Part shown: piece after piece, positions 31,393 through 60,076 of the stretch
Layout of the letters: the number at the start of each line of letters is the position of its first letter
Numbering within the stretch: position 1 is the first letter of the stretch
Assembly: GCA_964035545.1 (NCBI GenBank)
Contig: OZ037769.1
Span: 12,700,633-12,764,632 of the forward strand
Origin: Bugula neritina
Lineage: Eukaryota > Bryozoa > Gymnolaemata > Cheilostomatida > Bugulidae
Direction of reading: 5' to 3'
Length of the DNA stretch: 64,000 nucleotides
The notes under the pieces: model-generated
The model's database searches: none
Told to the model about the DNA's origin: nothing
Seen by the model: only the letters and a program-made list of their open reading frames with translations
Made by a program: the position numbers and the translations under genes

Positions 31393-34153
31393 ATGGCCAA
31401 GCTGTGTAGAGCATCAGTTTTCCTGCTAATTGGAGTCACAGTGGGGCTATCTGGAGTTTTCTCCTCGCCACTGGAAATTTCTGCTGCTGGGGTAAGCACA
31501 GTCATTTAATTCACAGTAAGCGCAATAGTCTAGAGTTCAGTGGTTACATTAATAATAATTGGCTGAATAGAGTTTTTGGAGTTGTCTTCTTTTATTGTAG
31601 CTTTGTAACAGAAGATAATATTTTACAAGAATTATTACAAGGCCTTCTAAAGACTGCTCAAATATGCTGATCTAGCTATTAAAATAGTATTTTTAGTGTA
31701 TTGAAATAACATGAAAACAACTTTAGTATAGATTTATAACTTATATTGTTATTATAGTTCTCATTACATATTATTATTTCTAATTTGAAAAAAAATGCAA
31801 ATATTCTTTTAAACAGCCTAAATAAAACATAATCTATTTTAGGAAACTTCGATGTTGGCTGGGCATCGGATGGAAAAAAGATGGGTCAGATTTGGAAGTC
31901 AAATATGGAAGCACATGCCCGTCACAATAAACTTTAAAGAATATTTAGCAGTTTTCTCCCCCTGGCAGCAGCTTAAAGTACTCCATGAATGCACTAAGGT
32001 ATTGTAGACTTATAAGTCTTATATATTTTCAACAAACCTTTGTTATAAGCAGCTAAGTGGGTCACCCTGACATATAACTGCAGCAAAAATGGGTCTTGGC
32101 CAACATAAAGGACAAAAACACAGCAAGCATCCCCTATACAGTGTCAGAGTTATGCTGCTATAATAGTATTTATATGTTTGTTGTATTATAGCGCATTGTC
32201 AAGACACACAGTCTATTATTTTGATGTTTTTTGCTATCTTTCACTTTTACAGGATTAAAACAATTGAGATTTTCTTATTAATTTTGCTTTAAAAGTATTG
32301 AAAACATTGAAAAATACTTTCTTTTAAATGGAAAGCCGAAGCGTGTTATGCCTGTTTTATAAAATTTGATGAACCAGGGGTGCAATCTCAAAAAAAAGTA
32401 TTTTTTTTAAATAGATATTTAAAGAATATATAAAATGTATGTAAAAATATTTCATTTGGAATCAGAATGAGGTGTTGAGTGATACAAATATAAATACAAA
32501 GTTACAGATTGCTTTTTATTATATCAACAATCATTAGCTAAAAATTTGTTAAATGTATAAATGCATTTGGTATAATGTCCATGTACAATGAAAAGTTTTG
32601 ACGTTTTAGTTTTGCAATTACTTGCTTGGCTGTTTGTCAAAACGCTACTAATTGTTTAGTATGTTTGATTGTTTACTGTCAATAATTATGCTGCATGGAC
32701 TGTTGTAGAGTTTCACCATTGAAGGCAAGCTGTGGTTTAAAATCTTGCAAAGTGATGTTAAAGCAGATATCTCCATATACTTTGAACACTTTGATGGACG
32801 CAGGAGATACGGCATGTATGGCAGTGGTATGGAGCCTCAACCTGGAAAAACCTCCTGGGTTCGCCTTGAAAAAGAAGAAAACTGGAAGTTAAGAAAGTCA
32901 TCAAAACCAACAGGACAGCAAGGTAGAGACATGTTTTATCTACTGTGCCCATTAATGTATTTATATATTTTCTCCATATGTTAAAAGCCCTCATACACAT
33001 TAATTAAAAATTAACCAGAAAAGTTGACATGTTTTTCTACTACACTGAGAAGTGAATATACATACCTGAGTGTCATATAAGAATTAATATAATAGAATAT
33101 AATATGCTGAGTAGGCCTATAATTATTGTATATTATAGTTGAGAAAATATGCTCCAAATAGCTCCACATGTAGAAAATTATTTTAATTGTGATTTTGAAA
33201 CAATAACAATCTTATACTTATAAATAACTGAGTTTTTCAATAAAATAGGTTTTAGGAAAAGTGAAAATATGTATTTGTGCATTTGAAATAACATTAGAAA
33301 TTCTAACAAGCGCATTGTTTATATTTTTTGCGTATACTGACAGTTTTTGACGGACTATACAAAGTTAAATCAAGAATTATACACCAAGCTAAATGCATTA
33401 TAGTTACCCTATAGAGTTGTCTTCTTTTATTACATGTTACTTTACTAAATACTGCACTATATATATACTCATGCAGGTAAACCAGTGTCATTCAAATTTA
33501 CCCTGTGCCACGAAATAGGCCATGCACTGGGACTAGACCATGTTAAAGACAGAAACAGCATTATGTATGCTTTCAATGAAGATCAAAATGACGATAAAAT
33601 TGATGAAGACACTCGTACTGGTTTGCAAAAACTGTATGGAGCTCAAAATCCTATTGTAAGTTTAAACTTTATGACTGAAAATGTATTATACTGTTTAGTT
33701 AAGCTTGATTACAAAACCATATAAAATAAGTTACGGTAAATGTGTCACAAAAACAATCTAACACGGTCGCATAATGTTGGCTCGCTGTTGATGCCTATTA
33801 ATGAGTGTGTATAGATGTATAAGTGTGTGAGTGTGTGAGTGTGTGAGTGTGTGAGTGTGTGAGTGTGTGAGTGTGTGTATGAGTGTATGAGTGTGTGAGT
33901 GTGTGTGTGAGTGTGTGTGTGAGTGTGTGAGTGTGTAAGTGTGTGAGTGTGTGAGTGTGTGAGTGTGTGAGTGTGTGTGTGAGTGTGTGAGTGTGTGTGT
34001 GTGAGTGTGTGTGGGTGTGCGTTTGCTTCCGTATTTGTGTTTGTATTGTACTCAAAAGCAGTTGAATAAGACATTATCACTCAGTTTTCTTGTAAAATCT
34101 AATTATTATGAGGTTGATTGTAAATTATCTGCGTTTTTTAGATTCGTGGATAG
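31393..34153 (+). CDS. Secreted MMP-like metzincin, 219 aa, no prodomain
   Basis: Coding exons 31393-31491, 31843-31998, 32709-32922, 33477-33655 and 34142-34153 join in frame to 660 nt. Residues 1-24 are a signal peptide (MAKLCRASVFLLIGVTVGLS). Residues 52-80 (RMEKRWVRFGSQIWKHMPVT) match the start of a matrix-metalloproteinase catalytic domain, and exon 3 aligns with its central sheet (DVKADISIYF, EENWKL). Residues 168-178 are HEIGHALGLDH, the HExxHxxGxxH zinc site with Glu169 as general base, followed by the Met-turn SIMY (184-187). The enzyme should cleave extracellular proteins. Odd points: no propeptide or cysteine switch between signal and catalytic domain, no hemopexin domain (the protein stops four residues after LYGAQN), and loss of most His/Asp ligands of the structural zinc. 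It could be an atypical active protease or a decayed one. Confidence 0.82.
33808..34016. repeat. (GTGTGA)n microsatellite in the last MMP-like intron
   Basis: About 200 bases of GTGTGA hexamers with GTGT variants. The Thr-His and Ser-His rich open frames across it on the minus strand are repeat artefacts. Confidence 0.97.
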
Positions 34154-34585: not shown

Positions 34586-36775
<2,190 letters not shown>

Positions 36776-38682: not shown

Positions 38683-41162
38683 CTATATTTTCTTGCTTGA
38701 GGGTGGTAGAGTTTGCTTAACTTTTTTTTGCCACTTTACACTCCGCCCGCCATTCTGACTGCTAGGCTGCCATCGAGGCTTTACTTGAGGAGCAGTTCTC
38801 TTTGGCCCTCCACTGTTTCTGTAACCATTTTTGTGACTGGCATAAGGAATTACCTTTCTTGGTGGACCTCCTCGACGAGATTTGTAAACTCTGTTTCCAC
38901 TATTGGATACTCGAGGAGTTGGTTGACAATTCTGGTTTTTCAATACAGGACTGTTGTCTCCAAATACCTGAATTACTTTATCAACACTTTTTCTGCAAAT
39001 AGTTTGATTATTAAGCGAGCTATATTGAGGCGTTTCCAATCTTGCTTCACCTTTGTCACCATTAAAAAGAATGTAATAATTGTTTGGGAATTTCTGGCAT
39101 GTTTCCTTTTTTATTCCATCTAGCCTGATAGCATCAGCAAACTCCTTACAAGCTTTGGCAATGACTTTCCTACGTGTATTGCCTTCAACTTTTGGCTTAA
39201 CTTTGTTGTACAGCACATCAGGCGACTCTCCTCTTTCTAATTCTCTATTATAAAATGTCTTGTAAAGATAATACTTGACAACATCAAACTCCACCGCTGC
39301 TTTTTTTCTATCGTTGGCATGTTCTGGAAATAGTAAACTGTTTCGAGCAAGGCAGTCGATGAATAATTGTGCTGCAGAGTATTTATCATTGTCTTTTTTA
39401 GTGACACGAGGTCTTGAAAATTGTATGGCAATGGGGTTTTTAAAGAAATGATGTTTAGAAAAGTGCAAACGCGAGCCAGCTAAGTTTAGCCTGTCAGAGC
39501 TCTCATCATATCTGTAACATGGAATTCCAGCCATTTCCAGATACAACTCAGATACAGGAACTACCGTCTTCTTACCTTTATGCTCCTCTTCATACATTAC
39601 AATGAATCTGTTGTTATTTTTATTGTTTCTGGCCACAAAGTTAGCCATTTCACCAGCACACTCTACATATATTGAGTCTCCATATTTAGGCTTTTGGTTC
39701 TGGGAACACGGAATATAAGTAGAATAAATCAGAATAACTTTCCCTTTGTTAGCCGGGTTTTTCATCAGATTATTTGGAACTTTTTTGTTGGTTTTAGTGT
39801 CTATAATGGTTTCATCATCTCTGTACAGCATCTGTATCTCTGTGTGCACTTCTAACTGAGGTTTTAGCAAAGCATCAATTCTTGTTCTTGTTGGCAGCTC
39901 ACATATTTTATTTAAACATCTCGGTGAACAGTTTGTTGCGTCACCTTTTACGTAATTTTTATAAAGATTGGTTTTAGGGTCAACATTATATTTCAATTTA
40001 AGTCTTCCGTGTGAATCTCTTTCAACATCTAAGGGAGTTGCCAGTACCCATTGATTAATTTTTCCAGTAGCGACCTGGTCTTTAAATGTTTTGAAGTGTT
40101 TAAAAGCTGTTTTGAGTTGGTTCTTAACCAAAGGCGTGTCCAGCTGGGCAAAAAGCTGATTAACTCGATCGGCATGTGTTTCCAGCCTAGCTGGAGCAGA
40201 ATTTGGTTTGGGTGGTTTTGGCTTTGGAAGACCAGGATTTTTCAGTGGTTTTATGATTGGTTTGACATCTTGATGATTTACTACTGAGACATGGGGAGAC
40301 TTCTGTGGATCTGAAAGATGGGGAGAGTGATGTGGATTATTATGGGATTCAGGATGAGGAACTCCCTTCTGCTTTATGTTGGAGTGAACTGGCATAGAAT
40401 TTGGTTTTTCTTTGCCTGCCTGGCTTGAATAAACTTCCAAGACTATGAGTAAACATATTACCTGAAACAGAAAAAAAGAACCTACACTTTATAGTAAGCT
40501 AATATTTTGACTAATTTGGCAGAACCCAGATATAGATGTATATACGTAGATAAAAGTTACAATTGCTTTTGAGGAATAGGGTCACTACCTTAGTATGCAT
40601 CAGCAAATTATGACCTCAGAACTTCTAAACATTTACTACACGGGTAAATTTATGTATTGATTCTATTTATGCGTAGCAAAAAAAACTGAGAGGGCGGTCT
40701 GCAACATTTAAGTGAACTGTCATTGTCATATAAGCTAGATAAATACATACTGATCGTAATGGAAAAGTCAACGGTTTTCATATCTCAATTTATGAAAAAA
40801 TTAAAAGAAAACTTAAGAGAATAAAGCAAAAGTCGAAAAAACCTTAATTATTCAGTTGTATTTGTTAAAATTTCATTAATTTAGGATTGTTGAAATGATT
40901 TCCCTTAAAGAACATAATAAAATGAAATAGCTGGAAACTTTAAAAATGCTGTTATGAAAATATCTGCTGTTTCAATAAAAAATACAGTCGACAAAGATTT
41001 TAGATATTTCAACAGCTGCCTAATATATTATAGAGGTATAAACACTTCACCTAAGAAGAATTTATATTGAAGTGCTAATACTTACGCCCATTAACATGTT
41101 GAAATATAAACTTATACTGCAAAACAAAATAATATACTTACAGAAAATTTCTTGGCTGCCAT
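38683..41162 (-). CDS. Secreted deaminase-like protein, copy A (599 aa, 2 exons)
   Basis: Exon 1 (41162-41142) encodes only MAAKKFS and ends at gtaagta. Exon 2 (40461-38683) opens at tttcag with VICLLIVLEVYSSQAGKEKP, so the join creates a signal peptide (about residues 1-22). Residues 35-100 are Pro/His/Lys-rich and probably unstructured. The core has HTE at 213-215 (a zinc-binding His and proton-shuttling Glu pattern), then VILIYSTYIPCSQNQ with Pro258-Cys259, then Cys275 in YVECAGEMANF, and the strand RFIVMYEEE. This is the HxE...PC...C layout and order of the cytidine-deaminase fold, with an unusually long 16-residue gap between PC and the last Cys. The last ~100 residues are strongly basic (SRRGGPPRK, KWQKKVKQ). 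Family members deaminate cytosine or adenine in nucleic acids or nucleosides; secretion and motif pattern recall metazoan SNADs. Deaminase identity and substrate are inference. A divergent, frameshifted partner lies at 57.7-60.1 kb. Confidence 0.75.
41142..41162 (-). CDS. 21-nt first coding exon of deaminase-like gene A
   Basis: ATGGCAGCCAAGAAATTTTC then T before the gtaagta donor. The matching exon in copy B is 57671-57691, which supports it as real. Without this exon the hydrophobic signal would lack a start Met. Confidence 0.75.
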
Positions 41163-41649
41163 TTTGAGCTTCAGAAAGCAAGCACCACAAATTGAAAGTG
41201 TAGTGCATGTTGGTACAATAATTCCATTTCTTTAAATAGTAAATTTTTGGATGTGGAATTATTATGCGTAGCATTTTGCATCTCAAAACTGAAGCACTGC
41301 AAGCGTTTGTTTTGTTTTGTTAAATTGTTATGCTCACAGCAATGCTATAATAATTTCTCATAAACTTACATAAGTTTGAACAAGCTGAATATACCCTTAT
41401 TTTTATGAAAAATGCTTATTTCAAGCTGTTTTAAAATGCATGCAGTTATTGGTTTATAGATTACAACGTTTAATATAATTATGCCTAGCTTTTTCATGAA
41501 TTTATAAATTTAAAAAAAAACACATTAACAAAGCTCTAAAATGTTAGATTAGTCATTTTTGATATATTTTATACTCTTAAAGCAGTCATAAGATAGGGGC
41601 TGATGCCATTTTAATAAAGACTCAACCAATTGCTTATAATCACCATCCT

Positions 41650-41862
41650 TGTGAGAAAACCTCTGGTAGAAAGGGTTTTCGTTAAATCGGGCTAAGGACT
41701 TATTCATATGTGACACGTACAGGAGCAATTAAATGACTGGATGCTCTTCCTAACATCACTAATGGCTTTTGTTGGGCTTAAACCCATGCATGACTTTGTG
41801 CTTATATACGTACTTGGCTAATGCTTCAAATCCTAGACCATGACTGCTCCCTCTAATGCTAT
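41650..41862 (-). repeat. tRNA-derived SINE, family A (copy 2)
   Basis: On the minus strand the head carries a degraded A box and CATGGGTTTAAGCCC as B-box region, followed by GAGCATCCAGTCATTTAATT. A matching copy sits at the equivalent place in the right arm (56982-57180), so it was inserted before the duplication. Confidence 0.75.
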
Positions 41863-42869
41863 CTTGATTTCTCACCTTTCTCCACCATTTCCTGATCCGG
41901 TGGCAAACCTGATGCCATTTTAATGCATATATGTTATTATTGTGATCAAATACACAGAACAAATTCACTGAACTAGTATTATATTGTATGTATAAGAAAA
42001 ATGAGGAAAAGGAAATGAGAATTTTCACAATTCAAATTACCAGTATTACAGCTAAAGCTAGATGATAAAATAAGACAAATATTTATATCGAGTTAGTAAA
42101 ATATCTGAGTTTTATTTAAACAGGAATTGGCCTTTAATATCTATAAAAAATAATTTGAACTTGTAGCCTATATTCTAAGAAAATGATATTCTGCTGTGTT
42201 ATAGATACTGCAGTAGGTCAAAATTAAGTTTTAGAAAATTAAAAACTGCAGAATACGTTGAATATCGCATTTCAGAACTGAAGCTGCCACGCATAAGTTT
42301 TGGTTTTATTATAACTTATCATAAACCCAATAATTGAGTTTGAACATGCCCTCATTCAAATGAAACTGAAGCAAAGCTGTTGACAAGCTTCATTAGTTTA
42401 TTGCTGTGCATAAACAGAAAATGATTTCTACTGATATTTTATTGTTATGTAGAATAATTTATATAACTTATATATAATAAAAGTCCGGAAATCTCATATT
42501 TTGCTTGCATGGTTAACTTTCAATACTCACACCAGCTACGACTTTGCAAGATTTTCATCACAATGCATCACCATCACCTACTGCTTCTGTTTGTAAAACT
42601 AAAATGTCAACTACTTCTTTTGAATAAAAGTAACTTCTATTTTTATATAACTTATAACAGCTAATCTTTCTAATTTACAAAAGTGTAAAGACAGACATAA
42701 AATACAAAAACAATCCTGAATGAAATTATAAAAAATAAAAGTTGTATAGGAACAGAGTGATTGGGTATACACTATAGCTAGTGACAGTACGTTAAGTATT
42801 TGATCAGAATTTTAGTAAATACTTATAAACCAATTTAAACAGTAGAGCTTGTAGAATAATTTAGCTAAT

Positions 42870-43025
42870 TTTTGCTTGCTTATTTCTCCTCCCCCCTCGC
42901 ATCTCTTCACCACCAATTTATTGCTTAAGCCTTGGCAAATGTTTACAAATTGTAAAATAATTCGAATCACAGACCTCCCGCTTGCAAGCAAACAACCTTA
43001 CCAATTACACCACAGGGGCTGCTGG
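42870..43025 (-). repeat. tRNA-derived SINE, family B, only in the left arm
   Basis: The minus strand reads TGGTGTAATTGGTAAGG, TTGCTTGCAAGCGGGAGGTC and GATTCGAAT. The right arm at about 55.9-56.0 kb carries the flanking sequence on both sides but not this insert. Confidence 0.65.
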
Positions 43026-44034
43026 GTTAACTCAACAGTACACAAACTTTAAAAAGTATTAAGAAGTTACCCTCCATTTTATTGCAATGTGTAATAACAA
43101 TATTAATATATTAGTGTATACACATAAATTTACCATACTATAGTAAAATTTATTATTCTAAAATCAGCTTTGATTTTTATTATCATTATTAGTTGAGCGA
43201 AAGTAGCCTAACTTTTCTTAGTTGTGTTTTTAGGTTTTTATATATAATAATATAATAAAAAAACACATTTAGATTTATATATATAGCCATCATTGTAATT
43301 CTGGTAAGAAATGTGGTAACATTTGCACCAAGACTGAAAATGTTAAACTATAGCATATAAATGCTGTATGCCACCTTTGAAATAGGTATTTGCAACATTG
43401 TTGTTTGTCTTATTGATTGTGAGATTGAGCAATAAAGAGGCTTTCCAATGTAGATATCAAAGAGTGTTTCTAATTGTGAGAATTAAGAAAATTCTGTGAA
43501 AATGGAAACATTTGCATCTAACTAATTTGAAGCAATTTAAAGAAATATAAATGATTATTTGTATACAAAAGATAGTTTTATAAGTTTGCTGTGTCATAAT
43601 GTTTTACTGAGCATATAGTAAAAATATCATTATTATATATTATATATTATTATATAATATAACTGATATATAATAAAATGCTTCAGTTTAGCATGCAACA
43701 GTATATCAACATGTATAGTGTAAATACATTAACATGAATAACTTTACCTTGCCATACTACTTTGCTAAATATTTTTACTTGTAAAAGCTGCCACTCAAAA
43801 AATTGAGTCATCATTGCATTAATGCACACCTAATGATTGTGCATCATAAAAAATTTCTTTTAGAATTATGAAAATAAAATAATACTTATATGCAGGTTTT
43901 ATCTAATCCTACGCACATTTGGTTGACTATGAAAATATAGTAACATCAAATGTTTAAACAATGAATTAGGTCATTGATTGTTCATGCCAGAATTTTTCTG
44001 TTAGCTATGCTTAGTATTTAAAGAATAAAAGAAA

Positions 44035-44040
44035 TTTATT
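44035..44040 (-). terminator. AATAAA polyadenylation signal of the SLC22 gene
   Basis: TTTATT on the plus strand, i.e. AATAAA on the coding strand, about 46 bases after the stop codon. It is embedded in an inverted repeat of TTTAAAGAATAAA. Confidence 0.55.
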
Positions 44041-44086
44041 CTTTAAAGAAGGTCTGGCATTTCTGACTTGCTTTTAACCAGCAGCA

Positions 44087-47000
44087 TTATATCTTAGTTT
44101 GGGCATCGTCTAGGGGACCGACAGCTTTTTTGAAATCGTCTTCTTTTGCTTCTAGTTGTCTGTATAAAAATATTTTGTGATTATCAACTCTATTGTTATA
44201 GTTAATATTACACAAGGTATATAAATATGAGAGAATAACATGCAGGTGTGTAATGAACAGGCATACACTTTCAAAAAATTGCAAGAAATAAAATGAAAGA
44301 CAGACATTCAGACACCTGGAGAGACAGACAGACAAACAGACAGACACACAGACAGACACACAAACAGACAGACACACAGACAGACACCTGGAGAGACAGA
44401 CAGACAAACAGACAGACACACAGACAGACACACAAACAGACAGACAGACAGACAGATAGGCAGGCACATATACACACAGACAAGCACACAAACAGACAGA
44501 CAGACAGACAGACAGGCACACACACAGACAAGCACACATACACACAGACAAGCACACAAACAGACAGACAGACAGACAGACAGGCACACACATGGGGCTG
44601 CCACACTACAGTCGACACGTGACTGTGAACGCGTTTTCTGTGACGTCACAACTGTCTGATTTCTGAACGCAACTGTCAGTTTTTCGCGATGAGTTCAGAG
44701 TTTGACAAGGCGAATGCTCAATTTCAGCGATCAGCCAATTACTGATTGGCAGGTAAGCCCTGATTGGTTAAATGTTTTTACTTATTTTACGTGCTACTAG
44801 CGAGCATTATTATTTGAGTTGGTTCTTCAAAAACTATATTATTTTACTTTTAAAATAATTATGATGGAGATATGTATGAAAATCTTAATAAATTATGAAA
44901 ATAAGTATTTATTAGATAAATTGGGCTAAATTTTATCTGCATATTTAGTTTTTCTAATTTGGTGGAATTTTATTAGCATATTCAATTCTTTATGCTATTG
45001 AATGCGATTGAATATAGATATTAAATCTTACTAAATGAAGCTAGTAATTTTGAATAAGTGAAGCTAGTAAATTAGGATAAAAATAAATAGTAAATCTTAT
45101 TGAATTATGCTAGTAAATCTCAATAAATTGCGATAAATTTAATTTCTGGTTGCTGTGAATACAGCAGAAACTAAGCTACAAGATTCCTAATGGTTAAAAG
45201 TTTACTGCAGTGCTAGAGACAGTTAGCTTTCAGCGTTAGTAGTGAACTGTAGTGTGACCAGCAAAAAGTAGGAAGTGGCGTTGAAGGTATGCGAGAGCAG
45301 CTCCAAAATGGCGTCCACAGTCGAGTTTCGACTGTAGTCTGTCATCCCCAATACACACAGACACACACACAGACAGACATACACGTATATAAACAAATAG
45401 GTTAACAGCAAGGAAAAATATATAAGTAAACCATTGAGTATTTGAAAGAAAAGAGAGAGCTCAAAAATCAACATATAAAATACAATAATAAGTTGATGAG
45501 CAGAAATTTAAAAGGTGTGTGAAATTCTTCACAACTGAAGTTTACAAATGATTAGCAAAGAAGCATTTTTTAATCTTACCATGTGTGTAAGCACGCCTGG
45601 CCTACCTGGGAAACACATTTGCTTCTTCTATAGTCTCAGGTAACTTTCTACCAGCCGTCTCTGGCAATAAGAAGGTCAGAAGTCCACTAAGTATGACTGA
45701 AGTACCAATGATGGCAGGAGAGAGCAGTTTGGAGTATTTCTCTGGCACGAAGTTACCCTGTGAATCACCAACAGCAAACATTAAACTAGTTGTAGCAAAT
45801 TCTCAGCACAGAGTAGAATTGTGGAAGGAAGAAACTATAGAGACTTGCATGAGATGTCTATTTGAGAACATACTACTTCCTCCGTATCTCACTAAACTGT
45901 GGGTCCTAACACTTCGATCTGTGACATATATAGTAGAATACCAGACTTCACTCACAGTTTCATTAAATTCAGCCATTTTGTCCCTATACACACATACATA
46001 AGCTAAGCAAAATAAAGGTTTTTTTGTGACCTATATAATTTTTTAAGGAAACTGTAAAATATGGAGGGTGTACCTATTGCATGTAAGTACATTATATTTC
46101 TTGATTATAAAATATAGATGAATGCAGCTGCATACCTTTCAAATGATGGTGTTTTATAAACTATCAGTTGGAAGGTATCTGAAAATTTGGAATATAGTGA
46201 AAGGAGTTATGTTCTCACTAAATCACACACCCTGATGCTCTAAATTATGAATTAGAATATTAAATGATCTGATTAATTTTCAAGCAACTGCTTTGCATGA
46301 AAAAAGTTAATAATAAACATGATGTATAGGTTACTAGAACTATGATACATACAATGTCATTAACGAGAGGTGCTAGTATCTGCCCAATTCGCCCCATAGT
46401 AGCATTTAGGCCCAGCAGGCTATTTCTAAGAGTGGTCGGGTAAAGCTCTGCAGCCCACACATAGATGGTGCAGTGAGAGATGGACAGACCAAACTTTCCC
46501 ACAACATTCAGAGCTATGTGGTACCCATTCAGCTGGGCATCATCTATAGAGTGAGGAATAATAAGCTATAGCAAGTGTATGATATAAGGTATAATATGTT
46601 ATAGCAAGTGTATGATATAAGGTATGATATGCTATGGCAAGTGTATGATATAAGGTATAATATGCTATAGCAATTGTATGGTAGAAGTTTATATGATATG
46701 CTATAGCAAGGGTATGATAGAAGTCATAATATGCTATAGCAAGTGTATGAAGTAAGTTATTTAATGTGCTATAACATGAACATAGAATGAGTTATAATGT
46801 GCTACAACATGTACATAAAATATAGCTATGTTATGCTATATAACCAGTACATAATGCGAGTTATAATATATGGTTATAGCAAGTACATAAAGAAAGTTTT
46901 TATAGAATATGTTACTAGCTATAGCAAGTATATAAAGTAATGTATAATGTGCTATAGCATATATTTATTATTTACATAGAACTAGTTATATGATGCTATA

Positions 47001-50000
47001 GCATGTACATAAGTTAGGTAACACACTGCTATAGCAAGCATATAAAGTAATCATTATATTGCTATAGCAAATATGTACATAATGTAAGTAATACAGTGCT
47101 ATATTAGTAAGTATAATATATAAAAGCCAGATTTAAAAGTTTTCAACATTGATTCATCCCAATAAGGTTTACTTTTTGCTTAGCCTAGGGCCACATGGTG
47201 CGTATTTTTGCATGTGAAAATTGAAATCAAAAGTAGCAAAGGAGTCCACTGTAGCGTCAGTGATGCATGATAAATAAAGCTTCCATTTTTAAATCGCACT
47301 CGCTTTCAATAAAACGCAATTTACTGGAACGTAGCACTAAAATAAAGAAATTGGGCTGGCTGAATAACTACCAGCCAATTAGGTGACGACGACAGAGATG
47401 ATTCGAACTTGCGTTGAAAATGCTGAGCGACAAGTGCGAATGTTTTCTCAACGCGCACAGTGGACACCTTTGCTACTCGTGATTTCAATTTTCGCATGCG
47501 ACAATACGCATAGTGTAGCCCTAGGCTTACTCTGATTACACACGCAGGTAATATTATTAGTAGCACATGATTACTCTAACTTACCAATTTATTTGATATA
47601 AATGTATTTATATGACCAACTTCCATGCCAACAATTACACTCTAAGAAAAAAACTCAGGTAAACTACATACAGATACATTACTTAATACTTACATATAAA
47701 TATAACAAACATACCTTCAACAAAGTGATCTACCAACACAGTTGCTATGCAGGCAGAGCCTGCAACCAGAAGCCCAAAAATACACAGCTTTTTCCTACCC
47801 AGTCTGTTGATACTGAGACAGACTGTGTAAGACATGAATTCAACAACCACAGAGAGAAGAAAGTTGGTGTAGATATTTCCTCCTATGTTGCCGCTGTTCA
47901 AGGACAAGCCGTAATAGCCTGCACAACTCGAGGCCCTAAAACACAGCCAGCAATATCATACTTACTCAGTTAATTTTAAATCTTTTATATCCTACAGCTC
48001 AAGATTATTTTTTAGGAAGAGAAGATGTTAATGAAAGCATGTATTTTCTAATTTTCATATTTTGTGAGAATTGAACATGAGTTCTACTAACCAAGTAACG
48101 CAAAGTATTATTGCACGTGCAAACAGTGTTCTCCCTTTCTTTAGTACTTCTGACAATGGAGCTCTGGAAACCGAGGTGTCTTGCTCAAGAGAAAAGCCAT
48201 CAGGGAGCACAACTCCATTTGTTCTAGCAGCTCTGCTAACCACTTGGCTTGCTTCAGCAGTTCTTCCCTTGCTGAGTAACCATCTGGCTGACTTTGGGAC
48301 AAGCCTACGACGACAACTTGGACATTTCAAACATAAATTTGTAAACTTTATATAATACGCATGCTAATTATAGTTAAAATTATGTAACATTAAAATTTAA
48401 AATGACTTAAAACAAATTAAAACCATTGTTTAATAAACATAAATTTGTAAGTCCTCAAGCTTGCAGTAAATTTTATGCTATAGTCACAATTCAAACTCTG
48501 GTGTGTATGCATCTTTTATTTTGCAACCAACTAAATATTATATACACAAAAATTATTATTTAAACTGCAAAAACTAAAAAAAATGCTGTTACATAGTTGA
48601 GGGGTCATGATAAAAAAGTAGCATCTATTTATTACAATTGCGAAATCTTTTACGAGTTTCCCAAATCGGCTGCACAATGTGTGACATATTTACGACACTC
48701 ATTAATTATTTTATCGGGACAATTCTAAACATTTTCATAAAATTGCCTTTACCTTAGTATCTTAGTCCATGTGTAACCTAAATGCCTACATCCTCTATGA
48801 ATATATAACCACATTCTAAATTTATTTGAAACATGCAACTTAGAAACGTTTAAATGATTTTGTATTATATATACGCAGTGTTAATAGTTTATAATTTAAT
48901 TCTAGTTTAAAGTCGTTGGCCATATGATATTATTCTACTCTGTACTTTAAAAAACAGTAAAATCTATTTTTATTGGAAAGACACTAAAACTGGTCTTAAA
49001 ACAAATATCAACCACTAAATGAACAGCAATACAATCGTCAAAACTTATTATTGGACAGAGTGGCAGCTAAACATGAATAGACAATTCTCAGTAACAAACT
49101 TTTGTGAAAACTATTTGACATAAATGCTACTCTTTTTTGCTGTAGTTTTTTGGCTGTTTATATTGAATGTTTTTGAAAGTGAACAATTATGCCCTCTTCT
49201 ATGCAAGATCTCTAAGAAAAGAATTCATCTGCCAACTCTACTCACCAGATGTAAGAGAGGAATAGCAATGCTGGAGCAGTGGTGGCAATTTGTGTGTAGA
49301 ACCAGTCTTTGGAGAGATAGGCTATTCCAGTCAATATGACAAAGCCGGTGGTGTAGAAATAGCGTACGGCAACACCTATGTAGACTCGGTACTGTTTACC
49401 AACCAGTTCCATTGCTGAAACAATGTGTGAAAGATCGGTTTATTACAATGCTTAGCAGCTTGCAAGATTTTACTTTTATATAATTGATTTCTAATTGGAG
49501 TAATGGAAAACCTTCCTTAACTAGGAAACATATAATTGACTTTTGGTCAAAATTTCATTAATTATTTTGATTTACAAACTGAAAGAAACTTTATATAACA
49601 AAAATATATTGCTTTTCTAGCTTATCAGCCTTAATCAATCAACTGTAAACTATTTTGTATAGCAATATAGAATTTACAGGAGTCAATAAATTTATATACC
49701 AACAAAAAATTATTTGTAACAAAGCTATAACAATTATATAATGTAACTGCATGGTAAGAGTTTTGTGAGATAGACGTTAATTGGTAAGAAGTAGAGGTGT
49801 AGGAGTTAAGAGTAGGAGATATAGAAGGATATATGGCAAAAGGCAGAAGAATTATATGGGTTATACGGGTGGTAGCGAGTAGAGGGGTAAGGGTTGGATA
49901 GTAAGAGTTACGTGGAGTAAGGGTGAGATGGTAATTAAGTAGAAGGAGCCATTTGCATGAAATGCTCTTTGCAAAACTTATAAATAAAACCATAGTACCA

Positions 50001-53000
50001 TTGTGCATCTTTACATTGAATAAATTGCATTCTTTTTTTTAAATAATATTATAATACTGATTATATTCAGTTATTTTCAATCAATATAAAAGTATTTATA
50101 GTAGTAGAAGTTTGATTATCAGTTATAAAGTGTTTACATGACTGCGGATTCAATAGTGAACAATAAGCTGTTTAAGTTTATATTGCTTACTATTAGATTC
50201 TCAGTAACACGTAAAAATCGAAAAATATTCTTTGCTATTTACATAGGAACATAATAAAAAATTCGGTATACTGAGTAAGTAAGAAGTAATATAATGACAA
50301 GTTTTGCATACCGATAACAAAGAGGCACATGTATAGCCCTGTAGCACATCCTCCTACGCCCATCCTGAGCACCGCAAACAAGTAATAATATGGGGAGAAG
50401 GCAGCACCAAAACCAAACAGAATTAGCAGCCCTATAGCCAACACTATTGCTTTCTTTCTGCCAATTCTAGAAATAACAACATTACTGGCTTTTTAAGGTG
50501 TAATTTGAATAAACTTGACACAATTTGTAGGAATACCATTTAACTGTGGGGATCAGGCAATTGCTGCAATTTGTGGTTAAGCGTTATAAGAATGCAATTA
50601 GTTTATATTTCTACGCAATCATTATATGACATATTGTATGCATATTTCTGAATTTATATAATAAATACTGCATGGTTTACTTTATATACATGCATTATAA
50701 ATGAAGCAACATATTTTTGTAATATATTCTCTTATTTTATTAGCTCCAGTAATATAGAATTAACTTAGCAATTTAATTTAGTAAAGTCACCCGCTTATAT
50801 AATACTATATGTATGCATCAAATGCAAAAAGAGATTATATAATGCTATACAATGATAAAAAAAACTTCATTCTTAATCGAAAGAAAGCAATTTTAAGAAA
50901 TATATATTTCTATTTATAACTCACACATCAGACAGAATTCCGAAGACTAAATTTCCAATCAGGGATCCAGCCATGTACAACATTGTACTTAGTGTAGACT
51001 TGAAGTTTTCCTCGCACACCAAGTCCCACTTGAAAATCAATCGATTCATTCACATTTTATCCCTAATTTTTTTAAATACAAAAAAATCTGACAAATTATT
51101 ATATGGAATTTAATGAAGTTGCACACATCTTACAAAGAATGAACATGGTTGCATAACAGTTGGCTTTACTCTACTAAATTATATTATGCAGCTACAGAGA
51201 AATTCTAAACCAATTTCATTTTAAACAAATTAAATGAATTATTAAAGACAAAGTTTTTCAAACATAAACTTAGCAACTATAAAAACATAAGTTTCAAAGT
51301 AAAGCCGAGATTAGAGGCTATTTTTAAACAACTATAGTGCAGATTATACGTGGGAAAAAGTAGTATTAACATGGTACATGTGACAAACGCCCTTACTTCT
51401 GTCACAATAGTCTTGGAGAAGTATTCTTTAGAGTAGACGAATTTCTGGCATGGCTCTGACACAATCTGGTTACCGAAGGAATTGCTGTAGTCGGTGCAGG
51501 GGTCATACGATTCAATCGCTGAGAAGTTGTAAGAAAGGCTGGTCATATTAAACTCGAAAGATTCATCCGTGGAGTTGTGTGCACATCTGTAAGTATAAAA
51601 TATATTTATATTGTATATATATTTTCACAATTGAATTGCAGGATTGAAACATCATTTTCTCATATAAATTTGAGTTTATAAGCTATAGTGCAGTATATAT
51701 ACTGCAAATTTGAAACGTTGAAAATACTTGACTGTAAAGTTTGTTTGAACAAGACTAGTTCAATTATTACTAATTCAATTGCAAGACTATACTCAGCTAT
51801 ATAGCTGGCTACTGTTAGCTATTAAGCTGTTGCATTCATCCTACTTAAGAAACTTATTATTATTCTGCTTCCATGCACTAATTTTTCTGACAGCAATACA
51901 ACATTCTATAGATTAGTTTAAACATGATAGACAGTTTTTCTAATATTATATTATTAACCATGAAAAGTTCAAAAAGTTGTTTAAATACTGCAGAGATTTG
52001 TGAGAGACTCTGCAGTTCTAATGCATACAAGGAGCCAGCACCATATATGTTATGTGCTGCCGCATTGTATACAATCATATGTCATCAAAAATTACATGTT
52101 TGATATATGTATTGCGAAGCCCTAAAAATTTGACAAAACTTACTCTATAGAAATAACATTTCTACCTTTAGAATGAGAACTATATAATGCAAAAATATAT
52201 TTCAACTTATTAATAAATATTTATATAATTTACAAGTTTGTTTAAAGACAATATGCTAATCATGTTTTGTAATTTTATAACTTCAAAATTATTGAAATTT
52301 TGCAATATACTTAAAATTTTTATTTGAGTGCCTGCTTAGAAAGCATAAAGCAACAAAATGTTAAACAGGCATGCAAATAGAATGTTGCGTGTCCATTATA
52401 CCTAACTAAAAAACTAACATTGAAACTAAGTTTTAAAGGTAAATTTTGAGTTCATTTAAATAATTGAACTTTATTATAGTAAATTTGACATTGCATATAA
52501 ATACTTTGTAAAATATTGTGTTAAACTGAAGTTACAAAAGTTGAAAATTTTGTCAGTTGGTTCACTATATACCACCCCACAATGCAATGCAGCAAGGCCA
52601 GCTTAAGGTAAGATTATAGGAGGTCTGTTATTATAACACATATATCAAGACATTAGACTTTAGCACAAAAGTAGAACACTGTTTTCTAGCTGATCTTCAC
52701 ATAGACTTTTTTTGACTTTCTCACCAAAAGGTCAAGATTTTATGCAAGCAGCAAGCAGCATATAAACAAAGCCGTTGAACTTTAATGGAAAAGTAAATTG
52801 TACTATATATTTCCGAGCTAACTGCAATTTTCACACAGAGCACACTTTAGACATTCTCATGGAAATGTCGAGATTTTATGCTCTGTTAAATAAATCTTTC
52901 TCATGTTACACTTTTTGTTATGATTATATAATCCGTTTTTTAACTTGAAACTATAACTGGTCCAAGGTTACATAACTCCAGCTGTCAGAGGCTTGGCACT

Positions 53001-54622
53001 GAAGTATCTGGACACACCTCCAGCTCTGTCCAATAAAACACTTTGTATATGTAATATGACGTCTATATAACCAGCTTCATCATGTCACGGTGACGTTATA
53101 TAATATAAACCATACATTATACTTTGTTTATAAATATGCAGCTTTTATGTTTACATTACAAAGTAGTCATGCATAAAACACTACTAACGAATCTTTAAAA
53201 CTGTTTGAACATTCCAAAAGCATAAAAAGCCTTTGTCGCATTATGCTAATATACAAACAACAAGCACACATTATTACAGCTTTAATTTGAGTTTAAAAGC
53301 TGTTAGCTACTATATTATTTTCTGTACTTTGTATGTATACACAGCTATTTTGGCTACCACAAAAAGCTAACTTTTAGAGTATTGTAATATAAACCCAGCA
53401 TACTTTATGTCATAATTTTCTTTTTCGTTCATGCAGTATTTGCATGGTGGTCAATACATCTTTATTGAAATGCAACAAATATTGGAAATGGGGAATATAT
53501 AAAAAGAATTTTGTTTTAAATTTAACTTCTGACGCATCACATATAAAATGTATTGTTAAGTTATTCACCTATATATCTTGGGTATCAGCTTAATACAACT
53601 TTGCAGGGTTGTATAAAAAGCTCACCTGTGAGAATCCCTGATGGAAAGAGTTTGCTTAAAGCGCCTAAGAACTTACTCATGTGACACAAGAGCAACTATG
53701 GCTGGATGCTCTTCCTACCATCACCAATGGCTGTTACTGGGGTTCGAACCCATGACTTCGTGTTTACTAGGCAAATGCTCTAACCTCTAGACCACGGTTA
53801 CTCCCTTCAGGATAGTATATGCTCAAGCATATTGCTTTTAAAATACATTTTGTGCATACATGTTTTAATAAACTCAGGATGATGGCTCCACTTGCTGATG
53901 ACTTGCTGCTAGGCTTAGTGACAGAGGTTAAATAAAGCTGGAATGATTGATAATTTCTATTTTTTGACTACTGCAGCACTCTGATTAATTATTAAGCTGG
54001 CTTTAATGTTTAAAACACAGGCTATACAAAACAAATGAATCTACTCTGCTGTAGAAATTGATAGTCAAACCTAGCGATAATTAGTGTCAGTTCTACTGCA
54101 GTGCCTCAACCACTGACAAACACATCAACTCAAAGAGCCTCATCTTGAGCTAATGCATGACATGTATATATATGCACAAAATCTATTATATAAAAACAAT
54201 ATGTTTGGACACACTACCCTGAAGTTGTTTTAGCTGATGTAAATAATATAATGCTCAAAAATGTAATGTGTCTGGGATTCCTGAAGCCCTTTCATTTATA
54301 AAATAAAAATACAGCTATAATAACTTGAGTTGACTTACATAATATTATATCTTATAGGTTGTTTTATTCCATAAGATTATGTCAATAAGTATCAAACAGA
54401 TGCTATATTATAATCACAGGTTTAAGAACTAAGCAAGTTATGCCAAAAAAGTTTTAAGGAACTTAAAACAGAGGCTTACCTAAATTCCGGAGTAGCATTA
54501 AGAAAAACCGCCACAAGTTGATGGAATCCCACGACTATGGTCGGCAGTCCAGCCAGAAAAAACTGAAACTTTTGGTATTTACCAAAACCTCCGATTGTTT
54601 CTAAGACTTTGTCTAGCTTCAT
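44087..54622 (-). CDS. SLC22-family organic ion transporter (10 exons, 536 aa)
   Basis: Exons 54622-54480, 51586-51397, 51028-50925, 50466-50312, 49414-49246, 48304-48092, 47935-47715, 46543-46353, 45757-45606 and 44159-44087 join in frame to 1611 nt ending in TAA. The start is the typical SLC22 opening, [20 protein letters not shown], before TM1. A large glycosylated loop with several Cys follows (exon 2, NST and NFS sequons), then WDLVCEE before TM2 and the major-facilitator signature SDVIGRKKA between TM2 and TM3. Later come [22 protein letters not shown] after TM6, [13 protein letters not shown] (TM7), [19 protein letters not shown] (TM10-11 loop), and [16 protein letters not shown] after TM12. 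Length is normal for the family. Such carriers move organic cations, anions or zwitterions across the plasma membrane; the sequence does not settle the substrate. The introns carry three transposon-derived inserts and two tandem repeats. The gene lies wholly in the loop of the inverted duplication. Confidence 0.93.
44285..44592. repeat. (CAGA/CACA)n microsatellite in the last SLC22 intron
   Basis: About 300 bases of CAGACAGACA and CACACAGA words. The Cys/Val/Ser and Arg/Gln/Thr rich open frames over it are artefacts. The same words resume at 45350-45390, after a transposon-like insert. Confidence 0.95.
44594..45349. mobile_element. DNA-transposon-like element with 44-bp imperfect TIRs (756 bp)
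   Basis: The left end reads GGGGCTGCCACACTACAGTC followed by GACACGTGACTGTGAACGC. The inverse complement of the right end reads GGGGATGACAGACTACAGTC followed by GAAACTCGACTGTGGACGC. No transposase frame is present, so it is non-autonomous. It lies inside the CAGA microsatellite, splitting it in two. Confidence 0.7.
46556..47110. repeat. Minisatellite, unit about 33 nt, in SLC22 intron 7
   Basis: Units of the form TATAGCAAGTGTATGATATA then AGGTATAATATGC. The first five copies (from about 46566) are close to identical and the rest degenerate, keeping the GCTATAGCA word. Confidence 0.85.
47183..47526. mobile_element. MITE, 344 bp, with ~75-bp TIRs and TTA target duplication
   Basis: The left end begins GCCTAGGGCCACATGGTGCG and continues through AAAATTGAAATCAAAAGTAG and CAAAGGAGTCCACTG. 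The right end is the inverse complement of this with few changes. TTA flanks both sides (47180-47182 and 47527-47529), the 3-bp duplication typical of PIF/Harbinger elements. No open frame of note. It sits in intron 7 of the SLC22 gene. Confidence 0.8.
49740..49945. repeat. Purine-rich low-complexity stretch
   Basis: An irregular run of GGTAAGAG, GTAGAGG and AGTAAGGG words in an SLC22 intron. The 125-codon minus-strand frame over it is compositionally biased and not a gene. Confidence 0.5.
51600..54470. other. First intron of the SLC22 gene
   Basis: The long intron between the start exon and the extracellular-loop exon. Apart from the SINE at 53.62 kb I see no exon or structured element. The minus-strand frame at 51878-52078 has no domain. 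Confidence 0.5.
53621..53807 (-). repeat. tRNA-derived SINE, family A (copy 3, best preserved)
   Basis: The minus strand reads CCGTGGTCTAGAGGTTAGAG (A box region), CATGGGTTCGAACCCCAG (B box), then GGAAGAGCATCCAGCCATAG and TTTCCATCAGGGATTCTCAC at the 3' end. It is the cleanest copy for defining the family, in the first SLC22 intron. Confidence 0.85.
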
Positions 54623-55119
54623 TATTACTAACTATTGATTTGGTCAGTAAAGCATGCAGGTGAGTAGTAGTCACTGCAGAAAATGAAGCCAGTAAATACT
54701 GGGTTATGCCTGCACAGGTTGATCAAGATATCACATGGGGGCATTAACCATTCAGTTTAAAAACTGTGAAAGGTTAAATGCACTTAGTTTGACCTTTGAG
54801 CATTTTGCAACCTGTCATATATCATGTTGATTTGAGGTGGCATGTATTTTAAGCTAGAGTTCAAAAAGTTAAAGTATGTAATGTTTATAAACATAATGCA
54901 TAATTTAGCAATAAAACATAAACAGTGAACCCTTGAGCTTTGGATTTTTCCACAGCCCACGTCATAAGAAAGAATGCAAGCTGGCTGCAACAGGATAATA
55001 CTTGATTTGCAAGAAATACATTCTACAGCTCTATAACTACTATACTAGGGCTTCTGCAGCGTTCTGTATCTATCACACAGTAGGAGAACTGTAGGCAAGC
55101 AGCTAGCAACAGCTAGATA

Positions 55120-55152
55120 TAGCAGCAGCGGCAGCAGCAGCAGCAGCAGCAG
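55120..55152. repeat. (CAG)n microsatellite upstream of SLC22
   Basis: About ten CAG units, one of them CGG, about 500 bases upstream of the SLC22 ATG. It could be in the 5' UTR or promoter; it is not in an open frame. Confidence 0.9.
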
Positions 55153-56981
55153 GAATAGAGTTACTTTCACTTCTTGTTTACACATGATTGACAATGAAAC
55201 TTTTCTTGTAGCCAAAGTCCCTTATAGATATTTGACTATCAAAGGTCAGCTAAACTAGATTTCACTTATAAAAGCCTGTAAAGCTCTATAATCATAATGT
55301 GGTATTTTTCAATTTCCAAATTATCAGCATTTTGCATATAAAATACAAATTATGCAAATATTCTTTTTTATGAGGGCAAAAAGATGAAAGTTTGAGATAT
55401 GTGATAGATATTGTTGAAAAGATTTTTACTGCCAATTAATATATTCATGCAGCAGCAAACCTATGAAACTATATTACTTGCATACAAATGATCATATTTC
55501 ATCTCTTTATTAAATTGCTGCAAATTAGTTAGATGCAAATATTCTATTTTCACATAATTTTCCTAATTAGAAACACTCTTTGACATCCACATTGGAAGAC
55601 CTAGCTTTATTACATGTTTAATCTAACAATCACTATAAAACAAAAAAAAATGTTGTAAATACATATATGTTACTTTAGTACATAGTTCCAATTTTAGTGC
55701 AAATGGTGGCATATTTAACCTATCAGAATTGCATAGAAACAATGGCAATGGTGACTATATAAATCTTTAAATGCGTTTTCCTTACTATGCAAACCTAAAA
55801 ACACAACTGCATGAGAAAAGTTAGGGTACAGTTACGCTCAACTAATCAAGATAATAAAGCTTAAAGCTGCTTGTAGAATATAATAGCTAGAGTACAATTT
55901 ATGCGTGCATTGATATATAAATATTCTTATTTACATATTGCAATAAATTCATCTAAAAAGATACATGGATGATATAAGCAAGCAAAAAATTAGAGGAATT
56001 ATTCAGCTATGAGCTCTAAACCATTCAAATTGGTTAAAAATGTATTTATTAAGATTCTGATCAAGTACAATATGCTCAATGTACTGTCACCAGCTAATGT
56101 ATATCCATTTACTCTGTTTCTATAGAACTGTTATTTGTTAATTTATTTCAGGATTGTTTTTGTATTTCATGTCTATTTTCACACTTTTTGTCAATCAGAG
56201 ATATTAGCTGTTAAGTTAGGTAAAAATAGAAGTTACTTTTATTCAAGGAGAGCAGTTGAAATATGAGTTTTACAAACAGAGCCAGTAGGTAATGGTAATA
56301 TATTGAGATGAACATCTTGTAAAGTAACAGCTGGTATGAATATTGAAAGTTGACCATGCAAGTAAAATATGAGATTTCTTGGCTTTTATTGTATATAAGT
56401 TATATATAATTTATTCTACATAACAATAAAATATCAGTAGAAATAATTTTCTGTTTATGCGCAGCAATAAGCTAATGTAGCTTGTCAACAGCTTTGCTTT
56501 AGTTTCATCTAAATGAGGGCATATTCAAACTCAATTACTGGGTTTATAATAAGTTATAATAAAACCAAAATGTATGCGTGGCAGCTTTTGTTTTGAGACG
56601 CTAAACTCAAAGCATTCTGCAGTTTTACATCTTCTAAAACTTAATTTTGACCTACTGCATTATATACAGCAGAATTTATCATTTTCTTGGAATATATAGG
56701 CTACATGCCCAAATTATTTTTTTATAGATATCAAAGACCAATTCCGTTTAAAAAAAACTCCTATATTTTACTTACAATTGATATAAAGATTTGTTTTATT
56801 TTATCATCCTTTAGCTATACTGCAGTATTTAAATTACCATGGTAATTTGAATAGTGGAAATTATCGTTTACTTTTCCTTGTTTTTATTATACATATATAC
56901 ATGCAATATAATACTGATTCAGTAAATTACAACTCAGTGTATTTGATCACAATAATTAACACTTATATTAAGATAACATCA

Positions 56982-57180
56982 GAGGGAGCAGCCTTAGTCT
57001 AGGGGTTAGAGCGTTTGCCTAATAAGCACAAATTCGTGGGTTCAAGCCCGAACAAAGGCCATTGGTGATGTTAGGAAGAGCATCCAGTCATAATTGCTCT
57101 TGCATGTGCCATTTCTGAATAAGTTCTTTGCCTGCAGGGACTTTCTTACTAGGATGGTGATTATAAGCTTACGTGAATCT
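56982..57180 (+). repeat. tRNA-derived SINE, family A (copy 4)
   Basis: It reads CAGCCTTAGTCTAGGGGTTA (A-box region), GTGGGTTCAAGCCC (B box), then GGAAGAGCATCCAGTCATAA. It occupies the same position in the right arm as copy 2 in the left arm. Confidence 0.8.
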
Positions 57181-57670
57181 TTATTAAAATTGTATGCTTA
57201 GCCCCATCTTAAAAAACTTATAACTGCTTCTATATAGAGTATAATAAAATACATTAAAAATGAATAATCTAACATAAAGCTTTGTAAATGTGTCTTTTCA
57301 AATTTATAAATTTATGAAAAAATGCTATATTATATACGGGTATAATATTGTATGAAATACAAAGTTTTGTATTTAACAAACCATAAACTGCATATGTGTT
57401 AAAACAGCTTGAAATAAGCGGTTTTTTTATGAAAATAAGGGTGTATTCAGCTTGTTCAAACTTATTTACGTTTGTGAGAAGTTATTATAGCACTGCTGTG
57501 AGCATAACAATTTAACAAAACAAAACAAACGCTTGCATGGTGCTTCGGTTTTGAGATGCAAAGCGCTATGCATAATAATTTTACATTCAGAAACTTACTA
57601 TTTAAAGAAACTGAATCATTGTACCAACACCACACTCCCAATTTGTGGTGCTTGCTTTCTGAAGCTCAAA

Positions 57671-60076
57671 ATGGCAACCAAGAAGTTTTTAGTAAGTACA
57701 TTACTTTGTGTTGCAGTATATAAGTATATAAGTATATAAGTTTATATTTCTGCGGTTAGGCGTTTATATTTTTATTAAGCAGCTGTTGAAGTGGTTAAAG
57801 TCTTTGTTGACTGTATCTTTTTATTGAAACAGCAAATATTTTCATAACAGCGTTCTTAAAGTTCCTAACCTAATGAGCAAGCTATTATTTCATTTGGGTA
57901 AACCATTTTAACGATTTTCAATAGCCTATAAAACAGTTAGCTATATATTAGGTCATGATGCATTTTACGATATCTCTAGTTGTTAGCTTCTTTTATAGTC
58001 TATAGCTGCTAATTTATATGGTTTTTTCCCTAAAATAATGAAATATTAACAAATACAACTACATTATAAAAGTTTTTCTACTTTTGCTTCATTTTTATAA
58101 GTTTTCTTTCAACTTTTTCATAAATTGAGATATGAAGACTGTTATGACTTTTCTACTACGGTCTGTATGTATTTATTTAGGTTATATGGCAATGACAGTT
58201 CACTTAAATGTTGCAGATCGTCCTACCCGTCTCTTTTTGCTATACACATAGTTAGAATCAATACATAATGTCTTAGAGCTTTAAGGTTATAATTTGCTGA
58301 TGTATACTAAGGTAGTGACCCTATTCCTCAAAAGCAATTGTAACTTTTATCTACGTATATACATCTATCTGGGTTCTGCCAAATTAGTCAAAATATTAGC
58401 ATACTAAGTGTAGGTTCTTTTTCTGTTTTAGGTAATATGTTTGGTCATAGTTTTGGAAGTTTATTCAAGCCAGGCAGGCAAAGAAAAACCAAATTCTATG
58501 CCAGTTCACTCCAACATAAAGCAGAAGGGAGTTCCTCATCCTGAACCCCACAGTAATCCACATAACCCTCCCCATGTTCCAGTAGTAAATCATAAAGAGG
58601 CCAAACCAATCATAAAGCCAGTGCAAATCCTGCTCCTTCAAAACCGAAAGCATCTAAACCAAATTCTGCTCCAGAAAGAATAGCGATACCTTCAGAAACA
58701 CATGCTGATCGAATTCGTCAACTCTTTGCCCAGCTGGACACACCTTCGATTAAAGACCAACTCAAAACAGCTTTTAAACACTTCAAAACATTTAAAAACC
58801 AGGTCGCTACTGGACAAATTAATCAATGGGTATTGGCGACTCCATTAGATGTTGAAAAAAATTCGAATGGAAGACTTGAATTGAAATATAATGTTGACCC
58901 GGCAACCAATCTTTATAAAAATTACATAAAATCACAGTCCACAACTTGCTCAGCAACTTGTTTAGATAAATTGTCCGACCTGTTGACAAAAACGAAAGCT
59001 GATGCTCTGCTGAAAGATAATCTAGACATACACACAGAGATACAGATGCTGTACAGAGATGATGAAACCATTATAGACTCTAAGACCAACAAAAAAGTTT
59101 CAAATAATCTAATGAAAAACCCGGCTAACAAAGGAAAAGTTATTCTGATTTATTCTACTTACATTCCGTGTTCCCAGAACCAAAAGCCTATATATGGAGA
59201 CTCAATATATGTAGAATGTGCTGGTGAAATGGCTAACTTTATGGTCAGAAACAATGAAAATAACAACAGATTCATTGTAATGTATGAAGAGGAGCACAAA
59301 GCTAAGAAGACTGTAGTTCCTGTATCTCAATTGTATTTAGAGCTGGGAGGAATTCCTTGCTACAGATATGATAAAACATCCGATGCGCTGAATTTGGAAA
59401 CTCCTCTTCTAGGCTTTCCAAGAAATCAGTTTTTTCAAAAGCCAATTGCTATGCAATTTTCAAGGCCTCCTGTTAGTAAGAACCAAAATGATAAATATTC
59501 GGCTACTCAACTTCTTGTTGACTGCATAGCCCGAAACAATTTTTTGATGCCAAATACTATTAATCGAAAAGAAACAGAAATAGAATTTCAGATTGTCAAG
59601 TATTTTATGTACTTGAGCTATAACGATGAAATGGGCAAGGGTAATCTGCAAGCAATGTACAAAAGTATTAAACAGAAAATACAGAATAATGAAAAGCAAG
59701 AAGTTATCCTAAAAGCATGCTTTGAATTCTCAAAAGCTATCGCAGCAGATGATATTAAAAAGAAAAACTGCCAACTCGCACCTTTTCGATATTATATTTA
59801 TTCAATGGTAACAAAGATGTTAATAATGAAATGCCAAGGTTCAGTACTCCCACAGAACAGACCTACTGCAAAGATTGTCTAAAAGCAACAAATTCTTTTT
59901 TTAAAAAAGAAAACCAAGAGTTTAACAACAAGGCATGTAAAGCAGTATTCGTAGTTCAACAAAAGCCACCAAGAGGACAAGATAGACAGAGAGGAGGAAA
60001 AAGAAAACCGTTCAACCAAGGAGGGCGGCATCAAAGTTATAATAATAATTACCGTAATGGTCGCCGCAGATACTGA
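57671..60076 (+). pseudogene. Secreted deaminase-like protein, copy B (two frameshifts)
   Basis: Exon 1 (57671-57691, MATKKFL) and exon 2 (58432-60076) mirror copy A. The intron position is identical, and the join again gives a signal peptide. Against copy A there is a one-base loss near 58625, after KPIIKPV, and another near 59800, after RYYI. Conceptually the frames continue: the middle frame is open to 59882 and carries HTE, STYIPCSQNQ and YVECAGEMANF intact, and the last frame ends in a basic tail rich in RGG, QGG, YNNN and RRR, closing at the TGA 60074-60076. As written, translation would stop at 58683, after about 90 residues, so it is a pseudogene unless the two losses are assembly errors in A/T-rich runs. 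Over the 114 residues from HTE to CYRYD, 104 are identical to copy A, while the C-terminal third is much more diverged and the tails are unalike. Confidence 0.75.

Follow-up and report, generated by a model that had tools for sequence, protein, structure and literature searches.

The stretch of DNA considered here (the window: 64,000 nucleotides of Bugula neritina assembly GCA_964035545.1, contig OZ037769.1, positions 12,700,633 to 12,764,632 of the forward strand) carries a head-to-head pair of related genes, gene A on the minus strand and gene B on the plus strand, about 16.5 kb apart. Gene A is intact, and its 599-residue product is a candidate secreted member of the zinc-dependent deaminase superfamily. 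It comprises a signal peptide split by an intron, a Pro/His linker, a core bearing HTE and, further on, PC-x15-C, a helical C-terminal domain and a basic tail. Exon 1 (41142..41162, minus strand) supplies the start codon and MAAKKFS, the first part of the signal peptide; the intron (40462..41141), with GTAAGT and TTTCAG ends, joins this to VICLLIVLEVYSSQAG at the start of exon 2 (38683..40461), which holds the remaining signal peptide and all other parts through to the stop codon. The splice sites of both genes were picked by eye from the DNA and are predictions.

Within exon 2, the HTE motif (His213 to Glu215; 39838..39846) would provide a zinc ligand and the proton shuttle, the PC motif (39706..39711) a first zinc cysteine, Cys259, and the sequence ECAGEMANF a second, Cys275 (39658..39660), at the predicted start of helix 3. 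These residue numbers are exon-2 positions plus the 7 residues from exon 1. Of the 78 linker residues, 17 are Pro and 9 are His, and the last 80 residues of the protein carry a net charge of +20. Hydropathy gives a hydrophobic N-terminal segment, as expected of SNAD-type signal peptides, in all three sequences tested (A, B and a relative described below, P0003), and from this start the gene A product would be secreted.

Gene B spans 57671 to 60076 and has the same exon layout. Its exon 1 (57671..57691) encodes MATKKFL and is followed by a GTAAGT donor; the intron (57692..58431) ends in TTTTAG. The first open piece of exon 2 (58432..58623) contains the signal peptide and linker, the second (58624..59798) the deaminase domain and part of the C-terminal domain (HTE at 59031-59039, PC at 59166-59171, second cysteine at 59217-59219), and the third (59799..60076) the end of the protein with its basic tail. 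These pieces lie in three frames, as gene B is one base short relative to A near 58623 and again near 59799. It is probably a pseudogene or an assembly error, and the window does not discriminate between the two. An earlier, sequence-only reading of this DNA had placed the named motifs correctly in both copies, and its numbering of the four zinc-site residues agrees with ours once exon 1 is counted; the complete architecture that it also assigned to both copies holds for gene A but not for the broken frame of gene B.

A protein search with A returned 10 relatives, a profile search 16 (those 10 included), and a search with the catalytic core added P0017 and P0018, giving 17 relatives (P0001-P0017) and one distant relative, P0018. 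The likeness within the family is more than chance, since the single-sequence search matched P0002 at an expect (E) value of 2.0e-52, the profile matched proteins outside its own build (P0011 at 7.0e-170 and P0012 at 1.3e-125), and the motif residues are invariant. Two relatives, P0009 and P0015, are B. neritina proteins with consecutive locus tags and contigs of equal length, which suggests local duplication there too.

Conservation was read from an 18-row alignment of A, B and P0001-P0016 (P0017 and P0018 were left out). All 17 covering rows share the His and Glu of HTE and all 18 rows share both zinc-motif cysteines, while PC is present in 17 of 18 (P0010 has LC). Fifteen residues separate the two cysteines in A, B and P0001, and 13 in the other 15 members (14 counted by script, P0015 read by eye from the same output). 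Between Glu and the first cysteine there are 43 residues in A and B, 42 in P0001 and 30-31 in the other members measured. The inter-cysteine loop is itself conserved as C-[SA]-Q-[ND]-Q...G...E-C-[AS]-G-E, with C-[SA]-Q-[ND]-Q...C in the 18 aligned members. In addition, an upstream C-x3-C pair and four downstream cysteines do not vary in any row covering them (14 to 17 rows); the four C-terminal ones, at exon-2 residues 370, 438, 489 and 512, are spread over ~140 residues. Such extra cysteines would suit the disulfides of a secreted protein.

Other traits are more local. The sequence-only reading had listed a 15-residue cysteine gap, a Pro/His linker and a strongly basic tail; the gap is real in A, B and P0001 but is not fixed, falling to 9 in P0018, the linker is seen only in the same three sequences among the aligned rows, of which several have an incomplete N-terminus, and the tail, clear in gene A, is not general, given that 6 of the 18 proteins P0001-P0018 (truncated proteins included) have a net charge between -1 and +1 over their last 60 residues. 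Past its conserved domains, P0011 carries long C-terminal repeats in which Asn, His, Gly and Arg abound; the C-terminus of P0009 is an RGG-like tail.

The deaminase fold of the gene A product is well supported by structure prediction. An AlphaFold2 model has a predicted template modelling score (pTM) of 0.86, and its Foldseek matches are mainly AID/APOBEC structures (49 of 50 among the matches listed), at 8-21 percent identity in the structural alignments listed. In the model, an alpha/beta core of deaminase topology has HxE opening helix 2, one cysteine following strand 3 and the other opening helix 3, as in the superfamily. Among viral structures, the strongest match is the BFVD entry H9NBR4 (E 1.1e-3, probability 1.00, 313 residues, 17 percent identity; the next is at 0.15), possibly a virus-carried protein of deaminase fold.

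Profile comparison places the same residues at the same site. When the family is aligned by hhalign with AID and two APOBEC3G domains, HTE falls on HVE, PC on PC and the far cysteine on the second zinc cysteine, with the loop as an insertion. The core scores 25.1, and none of 300 column shuffles equals it (mean 13.1, standard deviation 2.5, maximum 22.5); the reversed profile scores 10.8. Matches to Pfam deaminase families are weak and below cut-off: SNAD1 over the catalytic region of A, a piece of B and P0001, NAD1 (PF18778) and SNAD4 (PF18750) across that of P0005, and APOBEC4 in P0009; a longer piece of B matches APOBEC_N at E 0.11, without a SNAD1 match. No Pfam deaminase match at E 0.5 was found for 14 of the 17 relatives P0001-P0017, and at this threshold the 18 aligned members match 11 families, 4 of AID/APOBEC type and 7 unrelated, with similar E-values. 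The curated cut-off of the Pfam APOBEC group is not reached (within the family proper the highest score is 18.4 bits vs 27, for NAD1), nor is the SNAD1 cut-off of 25 bits (A 13.8, its core 14.8, the piece of B 15.4, P0001 16.4).

The distant relative P0018 (147 residues) appears from its sequence matches to bridge the gene A family and the Pfam APOBEC families. A search with the core profile, over a database of 5.8 billion, scores it at E 2.0e-6, and hhalign gives a probability of 97.5, with none of 120 shuffles as good; it also matches Pfam APOBEC3 at 1.3e-4 (22.5 bits vs a cut-off of 27) and, more weakly and always below cut-off, APOBEC4, Inv-AAD, APOBEC2 and a bacterial deaminase family. 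Its HTEIQ, YIPC and later cysteine align with those of the family in both MAFFT and hhalign. Unlike the family, P0018 (HTEIQ...YIPCAGNRCSFVSCAEEL) has nine residues from the PC cysteine to the helix-3 cysteine and an extra cysteine at x4, and by eye the predicted protein has neither signal peptide nor C-terminal domain. Spacings of 2, 9, 13 and 15 therefore form a series.

To place the family we drew on excerpts of three papers (PMC11004436, PMC8201067 and PMC5956068), and the comparisons below are limited to these. In superfamily chemistry, one His and two Cys bind zinc, and a Glu shuttles a proton while the zinc-bound water attacks the base (PMC11004436). Secreted SNAD clades are placed in sponges and vertebrates, with their activity described as unknown; SNAD1 is described as vertebrate and SNAD4 from sponges (PMC8201067, PMC11004436). 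SNAD1 resembles the present family in its signal peptide, the order HxE...C...C and its extra C-terminal cysteines, but has CVxxC (PMC11004436) where the family has C-x13/15-C. AID and APOBEC3 give the best structural matches, and helix-3 ECAGEMANF resembles their DCARHVADF; the classical proteins are, however, described as intracellular (PMC11004436), with PCx2-4C, whereas the family shares their HxE and PC, departs from their spacing, and adds a helical C-terminal domain. The AID-like proteins of sea urchin and Lingula are likewise invertebrate AID/APOBEC-like deaminases, with a proposed immune role, but carry HxE-x24-36-PCxxC (PMC5956068). Two of those from sea urchin increased rpoB mutation in Escherichia coli, and the excerpted text makes no mention of 'secreted' or 'signal peptide' (PMC5956068).

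Two assignments were tried and not adopted. Membership of SNAD1-4 as defined is not supported, given the missed SNAD1 cut-off and the absence of the CVxxC context (C-[SA]-Q-[ND]-Q...C instead), nor is classical AID/APOBEC membership, given the Pfam cut-offs, none of which is reached, and the absence of canonical PCx2-4C. Within the deaminase superfamily, the family is therefore called a new branch, secreted and AID/APOBEC-like in its working. The sequence-only reading had seen a zinc-dependent deaminase fold in the order of motifs, had named structure prediction as a check, and had thought of a divergent or new SNAD-like branch. The AID/APOBEC structures among the model's best matches and the profile alignment on zinc-site positions support the fold; of the SNAD affinity, the weak matches to SNAD1, NAD1, SNAD4, APOBEC4 and APOBEC_N stand, and formal membership is not supported.

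From the computed gene layout, family conservation, predicted fold and motif alignment we infer the zinc binding, catalysis, substrate, secretion in vivo and role that follow. Our preferred reading, which we hold to be reasonably probable, is that gene A encodes a secreted deaminase-superfamily enzyme working in the AID/APOBEC manner, with cytosine its likely target and host defence its likely role. Zinc would be held by His213, Cys259 and Cys275, and Glu215 would activate the zinc-bound water, so that a base, in all likelihood cytosine, is deaminated in extracellular single-stranded nucleic acid. The segment of 13-15 residues that separates the cysteines is placed at what we take to be APOBEC loop 5, beside the active site, and from that position would shape the substrate pocket. 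The enzyme would serve in defence against microbes or viruses, within a locally duplicating gene family of which gene B would be a damaged or mis-assembled copy. Such a role is likely by analogy with the SNADs and the AID-like proteins of sea urchin and Lingula (PMC5956068, as excerpted).

Four other explanations deserve consideration. The one that survives best, though still unlikely, keeps a secreted protein of the same fold and changes the substrate, making it an adenosine- or RNA-type deaminase or an enzyme of free nucleosides or nucleotides; the best structural and Pfam deaminase matches of the family proper are, however, of AID/APOBEC type. Somewhat less likely again is a secreted protein that keeps the deaminase fold without its catalysis and binds nucleic acid or another ligand. 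The departure of the cysteine spacing from the AID/APOBEC and SNAD1 motifs in the excerpted literature fits such a loss, as does the broken state of gene B, but the invariance of His, Glu and both cysteines in the covering rows would be unexpected without catalysis or zinc. Because of that invariance, an active enzyme seems likelier than a dead one. Improbable, too, is a secreted deaminase whose use lies not in immunity but in attack, as a toxin, or in rivalry among colonies. SNADs may stem from bacterial toxins (PMC8201067, as excerpted), the family looks secreted and has two copies in the window besides the two Bugula proteins, and P0018 weakly matches the bacterial deaminase model (E 0.11); yet neither of two pattern-limited scans, covering bacterial and archaeal genomes, turned up a relative, and none of the 8 nearby open reading frames (ORFs) scanned matched a toxin-system family.

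Several results also weigh against a secreted AID/APOBEC-like deaminase. The hhalign probabilities themselves are low (2.7 to 14.4 percent) and both profiles shallow; the further cysteine at x4 makes the second ligand of P0018 uncertain; and with AID/APOBEC3G as its sole partner P0018 does not stand out clearly from shuffles (7 of 120 as good). Any one comparison is weak by its own E-value or probability, as it would be had an unrelated fold brought His, Glu and Cys into place by coincidence, but the fold, profile-with-shuffles and bridging-sequence tests concur, and we therefore regard that explanation as very improbable.

With a bryozoan among its members, this family of deaminases, which combines signal peptides and an invariant active site with a changed cysteine spacing, would widen the animal range of secreted deaminases by a further branch and show the zinc motif tolerating a long loop in an AID/APOBEC-like context. 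The spacing would also explain why PCxxC pattern searches would miss the family. Gene A offers an intact gene with which to ask whether secreted deaminases act at all.

The two copies have diverged unevenly. Across 373 aligned codons between the two breaks of gene B, nonsynonymous divergence (dN) is 0.21 and synonymous divergence (dS) 0.70, suggesting that at least one lineage was under constraint for most of the time since duplication; toward the C-terminus, block dN is 0.32-0.53 and dS high or saturated. Protein identity is 84/92 in core residues 109-200 and 48/105 in residues 261-370, a region over which A and P0001 agree at 99/110. Identical DNA runs of 97 bases in the intron and 93 bases at the start of exon 2 (gap columns skipped) are longer than in all 2000 shuffles (maximum 72), a test that takes no account of regional rate differences. 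Across the block of 60 codons that begins with Glu215 and stops just short of Cys275, dS falls to 0.15. Gene conversion between A and B is suggested as the simplest reading of this patchwork. In the catalytic part, B is no closer to A than to P0001 (84/91), and any conversion there would therefore predate that split. The patchwork was noted at window positions 40596-40348 and 39803-39604 against gene B; identity between A and B is 94-95 percent in the core and about 60-72 percent C-terminally.

Three ORFs between A and B match models of major facilitator superfamily transporters weakly, below Pfam cut-offs. Beside gene A, a long reverse-transcriptase ORF (35101-36759, minus strand; RVT_1 E 7.2e-32) probably belongs to an element of the type without long terminal repeats (non-LTR). 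Several features were noted by eye. Related sequences resembling transfer RNA, with the look of a short interspersed nuclear element, lie upstream of A and B (41730-41960 and 56970-57130), near or within the duplicated flank. A HEIGHALGLDH motif at 33449-33724 on the plus strand marks a matrixin-type metalloprotease exon, and the minus strand carries two ORFs with cysteine patterns like those of Sushi/CCP domains (10067-10345 and 16233-16505) and a calponin-homology-like exon (1016-1459).
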